Origin: Halocynthiibacter sp. SDUM655004
GTDB taxonomy: Bacteria > Pseudomonadota > Alphaproteobacteria > Rhodobacterales > Rhodobacteraceae
Length of the DNA stretch: 64,000 nucleotides
NCBI RefSeq assembly: GCF_026015885.1
Contig: NZ_JAPDUG010000004.1
Span: forward strand, 1 to 64,000
Direction: 5' to 3'
Shown: positions 6,947-46,152 of the stretch, in pieces
Layout of the letters: each line of letters begins with the position of its first letter
How positions within the stretch are numbered: the first letter of the stretch is position 1
The notes under the pieces: generated by a model
The model's input: the letters and a program-made list of their open reading frames with translations, nothing else
What the model was told of the DNA's origin: nothing
The model's database searches: none
Program-made: the position numbers and the translations under genes

Positions 6947-8318
6947 GGACTTTCCCAAGATTGCCCAAACATCGAAGCTGGCCGGAGCTGCCGCGATCGC
7001 AACAGCGACGGCTCTCGGGTCCGCGAATGCTCAAGTTGACAACATCTCTGCCATTGCAGAGGAGGCATATATCTTCGCCTACCCAATGCTCTACAACTAT
7101 CAAACGCTGTACAATCAGACCCAGGACGCAATGGACGCCGGTTACATCGGTGGGTTTTCGGAGTATCGCCACTACTCCCATCCCTACTCTCCAAAGGACA
7201 CTGACATTGTCACGCCAAACAATGACACGACCTATTCCTGGGCTTGGCTGGATCTGCGTCGAGAGCCGATTGTGTTTGAGACGCCGGATCTCGACGAAGG
7301 ACGTTACAACGTCTTTCAGTGGGTGGACCTTTACACCCACGTTTTTGCCAGCCCCGGCTCACGCCTCAATGGCGATGAGGGCAAAACTTTTCTGTTTGTC
7401 GGGCCTGACTGGGACGGTGACGTGCCCGACAGTATCGATGAGGTGTTGAAGAGCGAAACAGATTTTGTCGGCACCCTGACACGGACCAGCATTGTAGGCG
7501 TGGATGACATTCCGGCTGTGAAGGCGATCCAGCACGGCTATCGGTTCACACCGCTGAGTGCCTATGTAGGCAAGAAGCCACCCGCGCCCGCACCGGAGCC
7601 AAACTTCCCGGTCTGGCATGGGGCACTGGCACAATCGCCCGCCTTCATCACCTATTTGAACTTTCTGCTGGGCCATGTGGATCCGCATCCTGACGATGCA
7701 GAAGCGCTGGCCTCCTTTGAAGCAATCGGCATTTCGCCGGGGGCCGTGTTTGATGCCTCTGCTCTGGACAAGGAGACCCACGACGCGATCCAGTCCGGCA
7801 TCGATGCGGCGCTGAAACGTCTTGAAGATCGCACGGCTACCAACAAGGACAACATCGGCCTGTTTGGTTCGCGCGCTTATCTCGGCACGGATTACGAATC
7901 CCGTGCTGTGGGAGCAATGATTGGTATCTATGGTCAGAATGAGGAGGAGGCAGTCTACTTCTCCTATTCCGCCGACACCGATGGCAACCCGTTGGATGGG
8001 TCCAAAACCTATACGATGAAGTTCGACCAACAGCCGGAGGTGTCAGAATTCTGGTCCCTGACCATGTACAACCTGCCGCAGCGGCTGCTTGTGGACAACG
8101 AGATCGATCGCTACTCCATCGGCGACCGCACGGAGGGGCTTGTCACCGATGGCGACGGCCTGACCATAACGCTCGGCCCGGATGACCCGGGCGAGGGGCA
8201 GAACTGGCTTCCGACCCCTGACGGACCCTTTTTCATGGTGATGCGCATGTACGGCCCCGGTCAGAGTGTCGTCGAAGGTACCTGGCCGCGCCCGGAACCG
8301 GGGTTGAGCTCGAACTGA
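6943..8318 (+). CDS. DUF1254/DUF1214 exported protein, start uncertain
   Basis: Exported protein of about 455 residues. The frame from ATG 7086 gives 410 residues, but in-frame codons upstream (from about 6957) encode a perfect signal peptide (KLAGAAAIATATALGSANA) with no ATG or GTG in frame. A GTG at 6943, overlapping the stop of the upstream fragment, lies one frame away, so one base seems to be missing or extra in the CCC run near 6954-6956. The N-terminal half is DUF1254 (VTPNNDTTYSWAWLDLRREP, then RYNVFQWVDLYTH), the C-terminal half DUF1214 (GDRTEGL, NWLPTPDGPFFMVMRMYGP). Family role is not established. Either a recent frameshift or a sequence error explains the start. Confidence 0.75.
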
Positions 8319-39443: not shown

Positions 39444-41282
39444 ATGCGTATAGTTCATAGATTTATGACTCTGACGAGTTTCGCACTTTCAGCAGGAGCA
39501 GTCAGCGCTCAGGATATTGCCGACAGTATTTATATGGGCGGCCCCATTCTTACGATTAACGATGAACAGCCGAACGCCGAGGCTGTTGCCGTAAAAGATG
39601 GCCGCGTGCTTGCAGTGGGCTCGCTTGCTGACCTGATGGAGCATCAGGGGGACTCTACGGAAGTCTTTGATCTTGAGGGGCGCGCCATGCTTCCAGGATT
39701 TGTCGATAGCCATGGCCATGTGGTGTTTGGAGGACTTCAGGCGCTTTCCGCAAACCTGCTCGCACCGCCCGATGGCGAGGTTACAGATATTGCAAGCCTG
39801 CAGCAGACACTGCGCGACTGGGTTGAAGAAAACAGTGAGGTTGTGGAAAAGGCCGGCGTTATCATCGGGTTCGGTTACGACAACGCACAGCTTGCGGAGG
39901 TGCGGCACCCGACTAGAGAAGATCTAGACGCGGTCTCTGAGGACCTGCCGATTATTATTGTTCACCAATCCGGCCACATTGGCGTGGCCAACTCCAAGGC
40001 GCTCGAAATCGTTGGATTTGACGCATCGTCGCCAGATCCGGCAGGGGGTGTGATTCAGCGCGCAAGCGACGGTTCCCCGAATGGTGTCCTTGAGGAGTAT
40101 GCGTTCTTTGGCGCTTTGGTGCCGATCCTTGCCCAGCTCGGTCCGGAAGCATTTGCTGAATTTGCCGTTGCTGGTGCTGAGCTCTGGGCGAGCTTTGGCT
40201 ATACAACCGGTCAGGATGGCCGATCTTCCGGTGAGGCCGTGGAAACATTGAAAGCTATGGCAAAAGAAGGACGTATTCCGATCGACGTTGTGGCATTTCC
40301 TGACGTTCTAGAAGCGCAGGATTATATCGGCGCGAATGTTTCGCAAGACTATGAGGATGGCATTCGAGTAGGTGGCTGTAAGCTCACCATCGACGGCTCA
40401 CCACAAGGCTTCACCGCGCTGCGTGATCGCCCATATTATAATCCAGTAGGCGACTATCCAGCAGGTTATAAAGGTTATGCTGCGGTCACCATGGAACAGG
40501 TTCAGGACGCCGTGGACTGGTGTTTCGAAAATGGCATCCAAATTCTGACTCATTCCAATGGTGAAGGCGCATCAGACATGCTGATCGCCGCTATTGGTTC
40601 TGCACAGGAGAAATATGGCGATCCGGGCAATCGGCCTGTCATGGTTCACGGACAATTCATGCGCGAAGACCAAGTAGACGCTTACAAGCGGTTGGGTGTT
40701 TTCTTGTCTGTCTTCCCAATGCACACCTTCTATTGGGGGGATTGGCACCGCGACCACACGGTGGGCCCAGTTAATGCCGATAACATTTCTCCGACAGGTT
40801 GGATTGTTGAGCGCGGCATGATGTTTGGTTCACACCACGATGCCCCCGTTGCTTTTCCGGATAGCATGAGAATTCTCGACGCAACCGTAACCAGACGGAC
40901 GCGTTCGGGTGACATCCTTGGACCACAGCAAAGAGTTGATGTCATGACAGCACTCAAAGCGCTAACCATCTGGCCTGCTTGGCAGCATTTCGAAGAAGAT
41001 GACAAAGGCTCAATTGAAGTCGGAAAGATTGCTGATTTCGTTTTGCTTTCGGATGATCCAACAGCCGTTGATCCGGAAACCTTGGACGAACTGCAGGTAA
41101 TGGTCACAATCAAAGACAACGAAGTGATTTACGAAGCAGACGACTCGATCAAGAAAGGCGAGATGCGATCATCGCCGTTCATGAGTGATCCGGTGACTGC
41201 ACACCGTTTTCTTCACGCGATGTATCAGGCAACCGGCGTAGAAAAACCATGGCTTCAAGGCCTCACCGCTCGCTTTCGATAA
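39444..41282 (+). CDS. Sec-exported amidohydrolase, YtcJ-like
   Basis: 612 residues after an AAGGAG ribosome-binding site, with a Sec signal peptide (cleavage after VSA near residue 22). Metal-binding residues are HGH in FVDSHGHVVFGG, His in ILTHSNGEGASD, His in VMVHGQFMREDQV and Asp in FGSHHDAPVAFP. The C-terminus has TIWPAWQHFEEDDKGSIEVG, IADFVLLSDDPT. It is a paralogue of the Tat-exported enzyme at 33716-35617 but uses a different export route, so the two probably differ in whether they fold or load metal before export. Confidence 0.9.
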   Translation: MRIVHRFMTLTSFALSAGAVSAQDIADSIYMGGPILTINDEQPNAEAVAVKDGRVLAVGSLADLMEHQGDSTEVFDLEGRAMLPGFVDSHGHVVFGGLQALSANLLAPPDGEVTDIASLQQTLRDWVEENSEVVEKAGVIIGFGYDNAQLAEVRHPTREDLDAVSEDLPIIIVHQSGHIGVANSKALEIVGFDASSPDPAGGVIQRASDGSPNGVLEEYAFFGALVPILAQLGPEAFAEFAVAGAELWASFGYTTGQDGRSSGEAVETLKAMAKEGRIPIDVVAFPDVLEAQDYIGANVSQDYEDGIRVGGCKLTIDGSPQGFTALRDRPYYNPVGDYPAGYKGYAAVTMEQVQDAVDWCFENGIQILTHSNGEGASDMLIAAIGSAQEKYGDPGNRPVMVHGQFMREDQVDAYKRLGVFLSVFPMHTFYWGDWHRDHTVGPVNADNISPTGWIVERGMMFGSHHDAPVAFPDSMRILDATVTRRTRSGDILGPQQRVDVMTALKALTIWPAWQHFEEDDKGSIEVGKIADFVLLSDDPTAVDPETLDELQVMVTIKDNEVIYEADDSIKKGEMRSSPFMSDPVTAHRFLHAMYQATGVEKPWLQGLTARFR

Positions 41283-41370: not shown

Positions 41371-42252
41371 TCATTTGATGCTGTATTGAACAAGTAGCGA
41401 GTGCACTCCGTCATCGTTTAGTATGAACAAAGACGTGCCGTCCGGAGAGAGGGCTACGCCCTCGGCGTTATCAAGATGATGAGTGCGGTCACCGTCGCGC
41501 CAAGTTAGCTCGTTTGAAATGACTTCCTTGCTGTCATTCGCCAAAAAATGAACCGATTTTCCTGTGTCGCTTACAATCCACAAGCCGTTTCTTCGGCTGT
41601 CAAATGCAAGGCCGGATACATCCTCTTTATGCGGTAGAACTTTGCTTAAATCGCGAGTTTTGACGACGCGGTCAAGCTCGGGCGTCATCTCGATTAACAG
41701 ACTTGGCTTGTCCTCTTTGATAAGAAAAACCGAGCTGGTTTCTGGGTCAACTGTAATGCCTTCTAGCCCGTTGTCCGTATCTCGGAGGTGTTTGGCTATG
41801 CTCTTGAAGACAGGTAAATCGCCAATATCTATGGTCGCTGCATCGTGTGGATGTGAAATAGAAAACGCGACGACGGAAGCCGTACGTTCCGAAACAACCA
41901 GTAGCTTTTCAGAACCCGCTGCAACGGCAACACCTTCCAAATCCTTCACCTGAGGTCCGAGGTTATGGAAAGCAGAGAGGTCGCCGCTTGCAATGTCCAA
42001 ACGAAAGACGGTCGGCGTGTTGTCTGAAACAATCCAAAACGCGCCGCCGTCGGGATCAAGGGCCAATCCCGATGGCTCTGTCAGGTCAATTTCTGGTTGG
42101 TACAACTTCAGGTGGGAGACATATTCAAGCTCAAGCTCAAGCTCAAGCTCAAGCGCGGCTACGGGCGACGCTGCAAGTCCAGAAGCCAAAGCTAAAGCCA
42201 GAACGCGCTTAGGCAATATACCAACCTTTCGCGCCGTGCCCTTCGTTTTCAA
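41371..42252 (-). CDS. SdiA-regulated/phytase-like beta-propeller, exported
   Basis: 293 residues (269 if translation starts at TTG inside the upstream stop region). Signal peptide LALALASGLAASPVAA, then ten residues of alternating Leu-Glu encoded by a hexanucleotide repeat, then a propeller: SGLALDPDGGAFWIVSD, DLEGVAVAAGSEKLLVVSE, GLEGITVDPETSSVFLIKED, AEGVALSPDGTSLFIL. This is the SdiA-regulated family, related to esterase-like phytases. The 5' end overlaps the upstream membrane gene by 44 bp or abuts it. Last gene of the five-gene exported phosphoryl cassette. Confidence 0.75.
   Translation of the reverse strand: MKTKGTARKVGILPKRVLALALASGLAASPVAALELELELELEYVSHLKLYQPEIDLTEPSGLALDPDGGAFWIVSDNTPTVFRLDIASGDLSAFHNLGPQVKDLEGVAVAAGSEKLLVVSERTASVVAFSISHPHDAATIDIGDLPVFKSIAKHLRDTDNGLEGITVDPETSSVFLIKEDKPSLLIEMTPELDRVVKTRDLSKVLPHKEDVSGLAFDSRRNGLWIVSDTGKSVHFLANDSKEVISNELTWRDGDRTHHLDNAEGVALSPDGTSLFILNDDGVHSLLVQYSIK
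42125..42154. repeat. hexanucleotide tandem repeat, 5 copies
   Basis: (TCAAGC)5 on the plus strand, coding for alternating Leu and Glu on the minus strand immediately after the signal peptide of the propeller protein. Six-base units change length without shifting frame. Confidence 0.9.
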
Positions 42253-42973
42253 GCTCGTCGAGCGCCGAGGTGATTTGTTCTATCGCTTCGGCGTCGGCAT
42301 GAGAGAGTACGAATTGTATTACCGGCTTAAAGTCAGCTTTGCTTGTCGAGATGATCCGAAACCCTTTTCTGGAGAGGGCGGTTCGAACAGGAGTAATGGC
42401 CGCTCGCAACGCTTCATCATCCGCAAACTTCAACTCAATAGTCGTCGTTTTGCGAAAGGAAGCGAAGTAGAGGGTCAGAACGCTCGCAACCGTTGCAACA
42501 AGCGCCATGACGGGCAAGTTAAGGCCAACTGTGAGCCCAACCAGCGTGACCATGATCACAAGCGTTCCATCAATAAGCGTGTTTGATGACATCCGAAATC
42601 GGAAGAGGCTGCCGAGGCCAAAAATAACAAACCCGATTAGGAAGCCATGATGCACAACGAGAAAGCCAACAAGCATCCCGATTAATCCAAAGAGGTACAG
42701 ACTAGCCTGCACCCGCCACCCATGCGCTTCGTCGCGCATTGAGTTTGTGCGTGGATGAAACGCAAACGCAGATACAAGTATCAGAGTTTCGACCACTGCT
42801 AAAAAGAACTCAGAAATCTCTGCGGTATTCGAAATTTGGCGCCAACCAATATTTCGGATTGTCACCTCAGTTGGGAGAACCACTGTTCCGTCTGCTGCCT
42901 GTGCGATCGCCAGAGTCGGGAAAGTAATACAAAAGATGATCGCGCTGGCTAGGGAGAATGTACGTGTAATCAT
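42209..42973 (-). CDS. membrane protein, MgtC/DUF4956-like
   Basis: 254 residues. A signal-like helix (7-25) and a short periplasmic stretch precede four helices (about 55-72, 88-105, 108-125, 135-165) with GFVIFGLGSLFRFR as the most characteristic block. The C-terminal 85 residues are a soluble alpha/beta domain (TIELKFADDEALRAAITPVR...). Helix layout plus ACT-like tail recall MgtC and DUF4956 proteins, but the match is partial. It lies 25 bp after the phosphoesterase gene and overlaps the propeller gene. Confidence 0.5.
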   Translation of the reverse strand: MITRTFSLASAIIFCITFPTLAIAQAADGTVVLPTEVTIRNIGWRQISNTAEISEFFLAVVETLILVSAFAFHPRTNSMRDEAHGWRVQASLYLFGLIGMLVGFLVVHHGFLIGFVIFGLGSLFRFRMSSNTLIDGTLVIMVTLVGLTVGLNLPVMALVATVASVLTLYFASFRKTTTIELKFADDEALRAAITPVRTALSRKGFRIISTSKADFKPVIQFVLSHADAEAIEQITSALDELENEGHGAKGWYIA

Positions 42974-42998
42974 TATGCGTGCGGCCTGTATTCTTTGT

Positions 42999-43976
42999 TC
43001 ATTTTTTCATCATTACGTCACCAGAAGGGACGGTATCAATTCGTCTGATAATGCGGTCGGGTGTGTTCAGGCGCTCTGGCAAAGTGCGCGTATCTATCAC
43101 AGTTGTGAAATCGGGCCCCTTGAGCGCGGAAACATGGATTGTCCCGTCGTTTTCGATTTCAAGAACTGTGAAGCTTTTCGGGCCAGGTTGATTTGTTCCG
43201 ATTAATCTTCGCGATCCTCCTCCCAGTTCCGCCTGTGAAACCACAGAGAAGGCATCGATTTGACCAGGATAATAGGCGTGATGATGGCCGGAAAGATAAA
43301 GATCGACGCCAATACCGTCGAGCAATTGCTCTAGCTCCGGATCTCCTATGATCTCCGGCAAGCGCTCAATCGTAAACGGCCAGAGAGGCAGGTGACTAAA
43401 AACGATCCGCGCTGGGCCAGCGCCATCGAAAACCGTGCTGAGCGCAGACATTTGAGCGCGGTCCAATTCACCAATTGTTGTTGCGTCAATCGAGACGATC
43501 CGCGCGGCTCCGATATCGAATGCATAGAAGAATGGGTAAGTGCCTGTTGCCGTGAAATTCAATTTCGGCATTTTCGATTTCCACTCGTCAGCATAGATGC
43601 GCCGCTCGGCTTCAAAACCTGAATAAGCTGATCCGTCGTGGTTCCCCGGAGTGACCGCAAGCGGAATACCCGCGCGTTCAAGCGGCTCCGTTACAACGTC
43701 ATGAAAGGCGCGCCACATGGCCCGAACCTGATTTTCCGAGAGCGCAGGCCGCCTTTGCCCTGCCACCATATCGCCGGTTGATAAAACAAGATCAGGATTC
43801 AGCGCGATAATCGCATCAATAGCTTTGTGAACATTGCTTGAATATTTGGTTGAGCCATAGGAGCCGTTCAGGTCCGAGATAACAACGATCCGGATGCTCT
43901 CGGCGCTTACCTGAACTGTGGCAAACGCCCAGAAAAGGATGCCTATGAGAAACTTAAAGCGCACCACAATCCACAA
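42999..43976 (-). CDS. exported calcineurin-type phosphoesterase
   Basis: 325 residues with a signal peptide (cleavage after VSA near 25). Metallophosphoesterase motifs in order: VVISDLNGS (Asp35; the usual second His of D-x-H is Asn37), LSTGDMV (Asp69), TPGNHDGS (Asn112, His113), VFSHLPLW (His195) and LSGHHHAYY (His231, His233). All other metal ligands are present, so it is probably active, perhaps with altered metal use. The start overlaps the upstream gene by 23 bp, so the two are co-translated. Related enzymes cleave phosphomonoesters, diesters or nucleotides in the periplasm. Confidence 0.85.
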   Translation of the reverse strand: MWIVVRFKFLIGILFWAFATVQVSAESIRIVVISDLNGSYGSTKYSSNVHKAIDAIIALNPDLVLSTGDMVAGQRRPALSENQVRAMWRAFHDVVTEPLERAGIPLAVTPGNHDGSAYSGFEAERRIYADEWKSKMPKLNFTATGTYPFFYAFDIGAARIVSIDATTIGELDRAQMSALSTVFDGAGPARIVFSHLPLWPFTIERLPEIIGDPELEQLLDGIGVDLYLSGHHHAYYPGQIDAFSVVSQAELGGGSRRLIGTNQPGPKSFTVLEIENDGTIHVSALKGPDFTTVIDTRTLPERLNTPDRIIRRIDTVPSGDVMMKK

Positions 43977-45387
43977 TGTCCGGCGACACCTCCCCGTTTA
44001 GAAAGAATACTTTCGGACTAAGGTCAAAACGCAGCTTATTCGCCAGACAGCTTTCGTGCAAAATTCCCGCTGCGAGAGCGGTGTTCTTAACAACTTGGCT
44101 CACCTCGGCATCTTTCAAACCAAGGCTTGTTGAAAGCCAATCGTAAATCGGTCCTTGTGACTGAAGGTCTTGATTAAGCGCAATCAAGCGTTCGTACACT
44201 TTGCCGTCGAAATGGCGCAGCTTTTCGAGCATCTGCGTCGTCTTTGCAAAGTTTGCATATGCCACCCGTCCGCCAGCATCATTGTCATTCAGATTTGTGC
44301 GGCGCAGCAAGATAGCGCCAGACGGGATATCACCATCGTTGATCTCGTGATGCTTGGCTTTCTTGTGCTCAAGTTCACCATTTTCGGTCCAGTAATAATA
44401 GGGCGTGAAGTCTATGTTTCCGACACGGTCCTGCTGGCTAAAAATAAAATCCAGCAGCACGATCTCAGAGAGTTCGCGCATCCAATAGACCATCTGCTCG
44501 CGAGAAACATCAGGGCCCAAGTCGCGATTGATCTGACTGTCACGCCGCCCTTTGGCAAGCCCTGTATCAATTGCCTCTACCAATGGAGCATCTTTTCTAA
44601 GCGCAAGGAACGCGGGTGTCTCTTGGAAGTCCAAGTTCTGTCCTTTTCCCCATCCTGACTTACGCGTCCCGTTGATTTCTGATCCGTATCGATGGCCCGG
44701 GCTTAACGTCAGAATGCCGTAGATTTGCTTGCGATCAGATGTGAAAATATCGTCCGTCGGGCGGTATGAAGACGGGTTTGCTTCTGCGTCAACGAGGTGT
44801 TTCCACCCTGCATAGTTCATGCGCGCGGAGCGATTATGTCCCGATAGCGAAAGCCCCGGTCGCGCCACCTCCGAGGTATGCATGGTGGCATCCATAGATC
44901 GCCAAACCGAGACTGGAACTTTTACCGTCATGTCGAAGTAACGCGAGAAGTGGTAGTAAAGCAAAGAGGAGGCTGAATAAGTTCCGCTTGTCCCTTCTGC
45001 ATTCATGGTCAGCTTGAATTTTGCCAAGCTGTCTTTGGCAAGGTCGCGGGCGGACTTGCCTTCTTTACATGCATTGCGCTCAAAGGCTGTTCGATCGTTC
45101 GCATATGGCCCATCGGTGATGTCATAGACCATCATCCCGGGGCTCGTGCTCCATGTCTTGGGACAGAGTGCAATATCGGCGGCATAAAAATCGAGCGCGC
45201 AAAACGCGGCTTCGTCTTTGGTGTCGTCCTTGGAATATGTGCCGTTGGGGATTTGGGCTATCTGAATACAGCGTTCAGTTATGCCGTTGGGGCTTGAATA
45301 GTCCGTTGCATTGCCAAGGACAGCATCCGTCGCAAACGCAGGTTTCAGGGCAAGGCCCACAAGGGCAAAGGCAGCGGTGCGGAGCAT
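43954..45387 (-). CDS. exported protein with kinase-like motifs
   Basis: 477 residues from ATG 45387 (GAGG upstream), giving signal peptide LRTAAFALVGLALKPAFA. The frame extends to 45675 but only by running through the upstream gene. The mid-region has AKFKLTMNAEGTSGTYSASS (possible nucleotide-binding lobe) and YFDMTVKVPVSVWRSM. Then LLDFIFSQQDRVGNIDF (Asp320, Arg321, Asn324) resembles the catalytic loop of HipA, Fam20 and PI-type kinases, and RRTNLNDNDAGGR (Asp368, Asp370) would be the metal site. Several cysteines suggest disulfides. Kinase activity in the periplasm is my inference and the family is not named. Confidence 0.55.
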   Translation of the reverse strand: MLRTAAFALVGLALKPAFATDAVLGNATDYSSPNGITERCIQIAQIPNGTYSKDDTKDEAAFCALDFYAADIALCPKTWSTSPGMMVYDITDGPYANDRTAFERNACKEGKSARDLAKDSLAKFKLTMNAEGTSGTYSASSLLYYHFSRYFDMTVKVPVSVWRSMDATMHTSEVARPGLSLSGHNRSARMNYAGWKHLVDAEANPSSYRPTDDIFTSDRKQIYGILTLSPGHRYGSEINGTRKSGWGKGQNLDFQETPAFLALRKDAPLVEAIDTGLAKGRRDSQINRDLGPDVSREQMVYWMRELSEIVLLDFIFSQQDRVGNIDFTPYYYWTENGELEHKKAKHHEINDGDIPSGAILLRRTNLNDNDAGGRVAYANFAKTTQMLEKLRHFDGKVYERLIALNQDLQSQGPIYDWLSTSLGLKDAEVSQVVKNTALAAGILHESCLANKLRFDLSPKVFFLNGEVSPDIVDCGAL

Positions 45388-45406
45388 CAAGCTTGTATTC
45401 CCTCTA

Positions 45407-46051
45407 TTATTTTGGGCAAATCGCGGCGCGTTCGGCTTCGGAGATTTCCAAGGATGAATTGAGTTTGAACCGCTCAAACTTGGCGTCAATCCAAGCGTCA
45501 CAGCCGTTTGCACACGGAGCGCCGTTTCGGGCTTCATCCCAATAGCTTTTTGCGCGTTCCTCCGACCAACCACAGAATTGAACCAGCGCCATTGCCGAAA
45601 GCGCGCCCGATGCATGGACACCCCACATGCAATGAACCAGAACCGGCCCCTTACTGGGAGCCTTGATCGTTTCATAGATCGCCTGCATCACGGCGTCTGG
45701 TCTCGATGATCGCGCAGAACCGTAATCTAGCGAACTTGAGCCGCATGAAGTTGCGCCATATTCTGTGTTCTTTCCAAAATCAGCGTAGAATGCTGTTTCG
45801 AACCCGCTTTCACAAAGCTCGACCCGTTGGGCGGTGGACATTCCTGTGCGGTCTTTATCGCCCCCCGAAAAACCAGCGCGATACAATACACCGGATAGAA
45901 CCGGGCGAAAAAAGGTCATTCCTTCAGGGGCCGCGTCGGAGTTGCGCACGAGCATCGCACTTTCACTCGGTCCACCAGAACGCGATGTAACATCCGCATG
46001 GCCCGCTGACGCAAGTATGCAAAGGAGGAAACCTGTAAGCGTATTTCGCAT
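45407..46051 (-). CDS. exported protein-phosphatase-like protein, altered active site
   Basis: 214 residues with a signal peptide (cleavage after GHA near 19). The body follows the cysteine-phosphatase plan: FFRPVLSGVLYRAGFSGGD, CESGFETAFYADFG, then the P-loop VLVHCMWGVHASG (Cys141). In active enzymes the pattern is C-x5-R; here the Arg position (147) is Ala, so phosphate binding and catalysis should be lost or changed. GWSEERAKSYWDEARNG ends the domain. It is 19 bp before the kinase-like gene, so the two form one unit. It may act as a phospho-peptide binding partner. Confidence 0.7.
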   Translation of the reverse strand: MRNTLTGFLLCILASAGHADVTSRSGGPSESAMLVRNSDAAPEGMTFFRPVLSGVLYRAGFSGGDKDRTGMSTAQRVELCESGFETAFYADFGKNTEYGATSCGSSSLDYGSARSSRPDAVMQAIYETIKAPSKGPVLVHCMWGVHASGALSAMALVQFCGWSEERAKSYWDEARNGAPCANGCDAWIDAKFERFKLNSSLEISEAERAAICPK

Positions 46052-46152
46052 CGTATCATCCCATGTTGTCTATCGTCAGTATTGAACACCCTGTGATTTG
46101 CATCAATACACTTGTTTAGGAGCGCTCCTCTCTCTCATCCGTTCAAGGTGAT

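Follow-up and report, generated by a model that had tools for sequence, protein, structure and literature searches.

What might a bacterium do with five consecutive genes whose products include a kinase-like protein, a phosphatase-like protein and a phosphoesterase? Such an operon lies at 41371-46051 on the minus strand of a 64,000-nucleotide stretch of Halocynthiibacter sp. SDUM655004 (positions 1-64,000 of NZ_JAPDUG010000004.1, hereafter the window), and a sequence-only reading of this DNA had proposed that its products, P1 to P5, form a periplasmic phosphorylation or phosphate-ester module. We find that the genes stay together across Rhodobacterales and that P2 is predicted to have a kinase-type fold, both of which favor this proposal, whereas the role of eraser that had been thought of for P1 passes to P3. 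We tentatively read the operon, at a probability just short of even, as an envelope phosphorylation module in which P2 would be the kinase, P1 a noncatalytic partner, P3 the eraser, P4 an anchor or donor supply, and P5 a docking protein.

The open reading frames (ORFs) bore out the coordinates and tight spacing of the five genes: 19 bp separate P1 from P2, P2 overlaps P3, 25 bp lie between P3 and P4, and P4 overlaps P5. In a simple Kyte-Doolittle hydrophobicity scan, with export-type N-termini judged by composition, P1, P2, P3 and P5 each carry an N-terminal hydrophobic segment of export type, and P4 has a signal-like N-terminal segment followed by ~3 further hydrophobic segments, as expected from the claim that four products are exported and the fifth sits in the membrane. 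The features are as follows:

45407 to 46051, minus strand: P1, exported protein of 214 amino acids with a predicted dual-specificity phosphatase/protein tyrosine phosphatase (DSP/PTP) fold, probable pseudophosphatase, nearest Foldseek fold match TpbA
45605 to 45634, minus strand: P1 loop H140-C-M-W-G-V-H-A-S-G149, with the Cys kept and Ala at the catalytic Arg position (Ala/Ser in relatives)
43954 to 45387, minus strand: P2, exported protein of 477 amino acids with a predicted atypical kinase fold
45013 to 45015, minus strand: invariant Lys125 of P2, matched by eye to Fam20 FKPM and putatively binding ATP
44416 to 44430, minus strand: putative catalytic loop of P2 (D320-R-V-G-N324), in which DRxGN does not vary
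44278 to 44286, minus strand: invariant D368-N-D370 in P2, a DFG-like site that may bind metal
42999 to 43976, minus strand: P3, exported calcineurin-like/purple-acid-phosphatase-like phosphoesterase, up to 325 amino acids
42209 to 42973, minus strand: P4, membrane protein of 254 amino acids, DUF4956/MgtC-like, with a soluble C-terminal part
41371 to 42252, minus strand: P5, exported SdiA-regulated/YjiK-type propeller, up to 293 amino acids
41340 to 41367, no strand: 12-bp hairpin just past P5, before the convergent plus-strand gene at 39444-41282

We asked whether these genes travel together. The P2 patterns matched 28 stretches of the species collection, of which 24 encode relatives, all in genomes or metagenome-assembled genomes of Rhodobacterales type by title (one labeled only Alphaproteobacteria); together with the window and four further genome stretches, they make a set of 29 loci. 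In profile searches, P1, P2 and P3 sit side by side on the same strand in all 29 (P3 being cut off by the contig end in L002), and all five genes are present in 22, so the predicted co-occurrence across Rhodobacterales was found. P4 adjoins the trio in 27 loci, the exceptions being L002 (contig end) and L043, and P5 occurs in 22; of the loci without it, L002 and L009 stop at contig ends, and the others are L010, L011, L023, L043 and L045. The seven loci without the full set hold three or four genes, and two of the seven end at a contig end. Three further stretches differ, with a P2 relative alone (L041), broken remnants of P2 and P3 (L042) or only P1 and P2 (L104).

The same association appeared at the level of whole genomes. 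Of the 198 family genomes sampled, 13 have P2 matches, and 11 of these 13, but no other genome, also match P1; the two P2 genomes without P1 are G301, with a decayed copy, and G484, with an intact but divergent and solitary P2 relative. The chance of finding 11 inside 13 of 198 is 2e-16, uncorrected for kinship, and the 11 genomes span 11 genera. P4 matches 10 of the 11 P1 genomes and, weakly, 2 of the 187 others (Fisher p = 4e-14, again uncorrected for kinship). The five-gene neighborhood is far beyond chance. An accidental neighborhood combined with a spurious kinase fold match would fit the moderate quality of the P2 model and an insignificant profile match (see below), yet it does not fit the constancy of P1-P2-P3 across the 29 loci, the nesting of P1 genomes within P2 genomes, or the single kinase fold group that fills the top 21 VIA-align entries for P2; largely refuted already by the co-occurrence, this explanation is hardly credible.

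The association has also outlasted changes of gene order. Two block orders, [123][45] and [45][123], occur alongside loci with an inverted P4. A branch of the P2 tree (support 92/90) sets apart all 13 rows of order 1-2-3-4(-5), two of them without P5, and the 4-5-1-2-3 and inverted-P4 loci fall elsewhere; from this distribution, the genes stayed together while the blocks [123] and [45] were rearranged. Three loci add detail of their own. The solitary P2 relative (L041 7500-9110) is 39% identical and holds all catalytic-type residues with no partner genes nearby; the broken P2 and P3 remnants (L042 ~6981-7808) belong to a same-genus genome and have transposase-like ORFs, named by eye, a few kilobases off; and one Marivita geojedonensis assembly holds two separate operon copies (L004 and L023), whose P2 proteins share 79% and 73% identity with that of the window; the L023 copy has no P5 in its retrieved flank.

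Fold comparison placed P2, the 477-residue protein, among the kinases. Its AlphaFold model, built from 21 sequences (mean predicted local distance difference test score (pLDDT) 69.8; predicted template modeling score (pTM) 0.74), gave as Foldseek rows 1-7 the DrFam20C1 chains (E 1.2e-3 to 8.2e-3, probability 1.00) and as row 8 Fam20A (E 0.11). In VIA-align, the best match was hydra Fam20 (Z 12.3, 4.1 Å over 247 residues), and the top 12 entries were all Fam20 or PI4KII (PI4KII at Z 9.9), followed by HipA, CtkA or bacterial Ser/Thr kinases as entries 13-21 (Z 4.3-7.8), with PI3K and FGFR lower (Z 3.7 and less). These rankings support the predicted kinase fold group well and the exact family less so. 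HipA and CtkA resemble P2 in being bacterial kinases of the same predicted fold group, but they score below Fam20 and are not known to be periplasmic. P2 itself has no Pfam match, and none of the five proteins reaches an NCBIfam model at its cut-off. No CotH-titled chain is in the VIA-align list, an absence that does not exclude CotH likeness, and none of the 21 P2 members has a CotH Pfam domain (PF08757). Searching the PDB sequences with the P2 profile gave nothing credible; matches to calcineurin B (the best of them at E 0.37), which align to the DND stretch, were judged to be chance.

P2 also keeps residues of catalytic type. The D-R-x-x-N and D-N-D motifs noticed earlier are present, in the precise forms D320-R-V-G-N324 and D368-N-D370, and K125, D320, R321, G323, N324, I325, D368, N369 and D370, like Cys 63, 75, 107, 447 and 474, do not vary among the 28 aligned relatives, which include the solitary 39%-identical protein. 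Of 32 loci searched, 31 contain both DRxGNI and DND and only the decayed L042 does not, and K125, D320, R321, N324, D368, N369 and D370 are retained in a 27%-identical homologue (P0007). Side by side, the Fam20 motifs AxFKPM, ERHNAEIAAFHLDR, DR and LDNG stand against AKFKxTM, YYHxSR, DRxGN and LNDND in P2. Judged by its sequence, P2 is probably an exported active kinase; we regard catalysis as likely, and put it no more firmly because P2 has no counterpart of the Fam20 helix-C glutamate.

P1 was expected to be a cysteine-phosphatase-like protein, which held for the fold and failed for the catalytic site. Its model (mean pLDDT 79.3) has a DSP fold, with TpbA as the top Foldseek match (E 2.7e-5), and VIA gave VHZ at Z 13.0 and an archaeal PTP and Siw14-type enzymes at Z 12-13. 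Sequence comparison pointed the same way: the Pfam matches of P1 are sub-threshold only and to phosphatase families, DSPc matches occur in 21 of 21 members (best 0.0025, scanning at E up to 10), and the P1 profile found phosphatases among PDB sequences, including TpbA (0.024). The Arg of C-x5-R, however, is Ala or Ser in all 30 P1-holding loci, where the loop follows the pattern HCxxGxH[A/S]SG as HCMWGVHSSG (19 loci), HCMWGVHASG (10) or HCWYGLHASG (1, in G580). With a P-loop lacking the catalytic Arg, P1 is not the obvious eraser and is probably a pseudophosphatase. That the loop is so conserved without its Arg points to selection, for binding or for a changed chemistry, and not to decay.

Two known proteins help to place P1. 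TpbA, a periplasmic DSP of Pseudomonas aeruginosa, shares with it the predicted DSP fold and an alignable GPVLxHCxxG, but in all 30 loci P1 lacks the P-loop Arg and has His directly before the Ala or Ser that takes its place, and P1 is the near-constant partner of a kinase-fold protein. Pseudophosphatases of the STYX type (2r0b; VIA Z 11.4) likewise combine a DSP fold with a defective active site; STYX lost the Cys and kept the Arg, and P1 is the reverse.

The pairing of P2 with P1 invites comparison with the Fam20 kinases of the secretory pathway (Fam20A, Fam20B and Fam20C). The predicted fold of P2, with Fam20 proteins as its best PDB matches, its export, its several conserved cysteines and its DR catalytic loop all recall this family, and P2 may act as a kinase beside a pseudoenzyme, much as Fam20C works with its pseudoenzyme partner Fam20A, as the available text of PMC5865150 describes. 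The same text has Fam20-type kinases phosphorylating secreted proteins and proteoglycans (PMC5865150). P2 differs in being bacterial, without a significant sequence match, PF06702 or the helix-C Glu, and with a different conserved insert at ~176-260 (by eye); moreover, its partner has a phosphatase fold, whereas that of Fam20C has a kinase fold. A kinome survey, in the part available, lists FAM20 as a cluster specific to eukaryotes or to Metazoa (PMC9758233), the terms 'bacteri' and 'prokaryot' are absent from the accessible text of PMC5865150, and 'bacteria' appears once, in a reference, in that of a Fam20 review (PMC7948968).

If P1 is a poor candidate for removing phosphate, P3 is a better one. 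Its assignment as a calcineurin-type phosphoesterase was upheld by a match to PF00149 Metallophos (4.3e-17), and its profile found purple acid phosphatases among PDB sequences (2.5e-6). The metal-ligand motifs D, GD, GNH, H and GHxH are all present, with D35, D69, N112, H113, H195, H231 and H233 invariant in 21 of 21 members; motif I carries N37 at a position commonly taken by His. Because this metal site is nearly intact, P3 is, on sequence grounds, the most credible hydrolase of the five and a better eraser than P1. P3 may alternatively start at a GTG at 43967 or 43964.

P5 proved to belong where it had been placed, in the SdiA-regulated/phytase-like group, with PF06977 at 7.5e-21 (74.9 bits against a cut-off of 21) and Phytase-like at 1.3e-12; its nearest relative among solved structures is YjiK (3qqz, 7.5e-11). 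An alternative TTG start at 42216 agrees better with the P5 signal peptide. Right behind that signal peptide, a 6-bp repeat in five perfect copies (42125-42154) encodes a Leu-Glu run, in which a change of copy number would keep the frame and alter the mature N-terminus. The hairpin beyond P5 is a possible terminator common to P5 and the convergent gene.

Folds of the purple acid phosphatase, propeller and PTP kinds all include phytases. One might thus see in P3, P5 and P1, which recall these three folds, a cassette for scavenging inositol phosphates or similar phosphate esters, given the likeness of P3 to purple acid phosphatases, the Phytase-like match of P5, and the resemblance of the P1 model to several DSPs, Siw14 (titled PP-IP phosphatase) and PFA-DSP1 included. 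Scavenging, however, has no use for a kinase fold, the P1 active site is incomplete, and P5 is closest to YjiK among solved structures. Nor did the upstream regions speak for phosphate regulation: across 25 of them, the best Pho-box matches had 3 mismatches in 5 regions, 4 in 12 and 5 in 8, and as 13% of mononucleotide shuffles reach 3 mismatches or fewer, we dropped the Pho box as support. Scavenging is therefore quite improbable in our view. An FNR box upstream of P1 (TTGATGCAAATCAC at ~46093-46106, 55 bp from P1) was rejected as not conserved, because of the 24 other P1 upstream regions just 2 have a one-mismatch site, at a different distance.

P4 is a membrane protein, as had been claimed, and links the operon to a known arrangement. 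Its DUF4956 (PF16316) score of 11.5 bits (P0004) is below the curated cut-off of 30.6; across 23 P4 members, DUF4956 matches occur in all 23 at E up to 10 (best 9.3e-5) and MgtC matches in 22, and the profile search of PDB sequences gave nothing credible. On this basis, we treat P4 as DUF4956/MgtC-like and not as a DUF4956 member. According to the available text of PMC7112168, CotH kinase clusters with a polyphosphate polymerase and DUF4956, and that of PMC12189002 reports sequence similarity of CotH to Fam20C. The operon resembles such clusters in encoding an atypical-kinase-fold protein with a DUF4956-like one (P2 and P4), but P2 is not CotH by Pfam, P4 is under the DUF4956 cut-off, P1, P3 and P5 are extra, and none of the five operon genes was seen to encode a polyphosphate polymerase. 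The earlier statement that no described system has this composition thus stands with a nuance: literature titles and abstracts gave none with the gene set, subscription papers and the Gradowski 2020 survey of bacterial kinase-like families, which PMC10870513 cites, may mention one, and the CotH clusters are a related known arrangement.

How, then, could the five proteins work together? In the envelope module that we favor, P2 would act as a kinase of the Fam20/PI4KII/HipA fold group; exported and containing cysteines, it would place phosphate onto an envelope substrate, be it protein, glycan or lipid. P1 may bind P2 or its phosphorylated product and regulate it in the manner of pseudoenzyme partners such as Fam20A, and P3 would hydrolyze the phosphoester made by P2. 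P4 might hold the complex at the inner membrane or supply the phosphate donor, the latter being speculation drawn from the CotH/DUF4956 association, and P5 would serve as a docking propeller. The starting points of this proposal are the gene set, the export-type N-termini, the predicted P1 and P2 folds, the co-occurrence and the retained catalytic-type residues; from these we infer P2 kinase activity, the direction of regulation, the substrate and the donor.

Several observations weigh against this proposal. The P2 model is of middling confidence, with the putative active-site loops 318-326 and 363-382 at pLDDT <50, and in Foldseek no match fell under E 0.001 and the TM-scores on the query were 0.37-0.41 for the seven DrFam20C1 rows. 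No Pfam kinase family, PF06702 included, was found among the 21 P2 members in a scan at E up to 10, and the hhalign comparison of P2 with Fam20, using a profile of only 4 Fam20 stretches, was not significant (probability 1.5%, P 0.033); its best alignment sets D320-R321 on the Fam20 catalytic DR, with D368 placed by eye. G484 (L041) holds an intact P2 member with none of P1, P3, P4 and P5 in the 16 kb searched, and its genome has no P1 match. Periplasmic ATP and any substrate of P2 are themselves matters of inference. Finally, across the 28 sequences P2 has no conserved acidic residue at the position of the Fam20 helix-C Glu (ERHNAE), and P0007 has no acidic residue whatever in that region, which was placed by eye. 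In sequence comparison, the pseudokinase Fam20A has Gln where Fam20C has the Glu of ERHNAE, which we take to be the decisive residue. Fam20A lacks a critical active-site residue, according to the available text of PMC5865150.

The missing glutamate, together with the lost Arg of P1, would also suit two pseudoenzymes and a hydrolase, with P2 binding nucleotide without transfer, P1 binding phospho-groups, and the pair sensing a ligand or controlling P3 or P4. Against this stands the strict retention of the Lys, base Asp, Asn and metal-site Asp of P2 down to 27% identity, which exceeds what ATP scaffolding should need, and we consider such a pair unlikely. Alternatively, P2 could be a kinase-fold enzyme of another chemistry, such as AMP transfer or glutamylation, as the available text of PMC10870513 describes for the kinase-like SelO and SidJ, with P3 as the reversing phosphodiesterase. 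The departure of the P2 active site from Fam20 and the metallophosphoesterase nature of P3 would agree with this, but P2 matches no Pfam or NCBIfam model of such families, and we find the idea highly doubtful.

Returning to the envelope module, its distribution hints at which parts form its core. P2 is rare, found in 1 of 289 class genomes (the host's own) and 2 of 398 phylum genomes (its own and G580), with no copies found in plasmids or viral contigs; PF06702 (Fam20C) exceeded its cut-off in 0 of the 398 phylum genomes, with 2 weak fragments. G580 (L104) belongs to a different family of the same class; in that family, P2 occurs in 1 of 61 genomes, G580 itself. Its P1 and P2 homologues are adjacent and in the same order (BLASTP 35% and 26% identity), and P3, P4 and P5 were not found in 17 kb around them, so from this one case P1-P2 is likely the core and P3-P5 are additions. 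Adjoining the G580 pair is an exported 387-amino acid protein (P0006, L104 5176-6339), found in 1 of the 61 family genomes (G580 only), whose motifs are reminiscent of Fam20: EIAAFNLSAILG, WDR and TDNG, also given as EIAAFNLSAILGY, WDRYSGGN and TDNGG. P0006 had no Pfam or PDB match, and hhalign aligned 18 columns only (probability 2.5%).

In other genomes, the surroundings of the operon are rich, by eye, in small exported proteins and lipoproteins (clusters c5, c6, c8, c12 and c14; loci including L003, L004, L007, L010, L013, L020, L022 and L046). In the proteins of c5, which occurs in 14 of the 31 stretches compared, an ADDGGGAMAG-like linker recurs, and some of them carry SH3_3 domains. The cluster is present in 32 of 198 family genomes, among them 9 of the 11 that have the operon (p 1e-6 without correction, some matches being partial); as it is absent from the Halocynthiibacter sp. 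SDUM655004 genome, it is not part of the operon. The idea that c5 is a lysozyme inhibitor had no Pfam support and is not claimed. These small exported neighbors may be clients of the system in other genomes.

A fuller version of the proposal would join a bacterial family of envelope kinases of Fam20-like fold, a regulator that is a DSP-fold pseudophosphatase, and a donor supply of DUF4956 type into a periplasmic circuit that writes, binds and erases; we hold this to be rather unlikely as a whole. The papers found, as far as their accessible text goes, contain no description of such extracytoplasmic signaling in Gram-negative bacteria. If true, an exported bacterial family of Fam20 fold tied to a phosphatase-fold partner without Arg would be a tractable system, bearing on whether Gram-negative bacteria phosphorylate envelope molecules in their periplasm and on the source of the donor, as well as on the way in which a pseudophosphatase could control a kinase. 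DUF4956-type proteins, known beside CotH, may then gain a second kinase partner.

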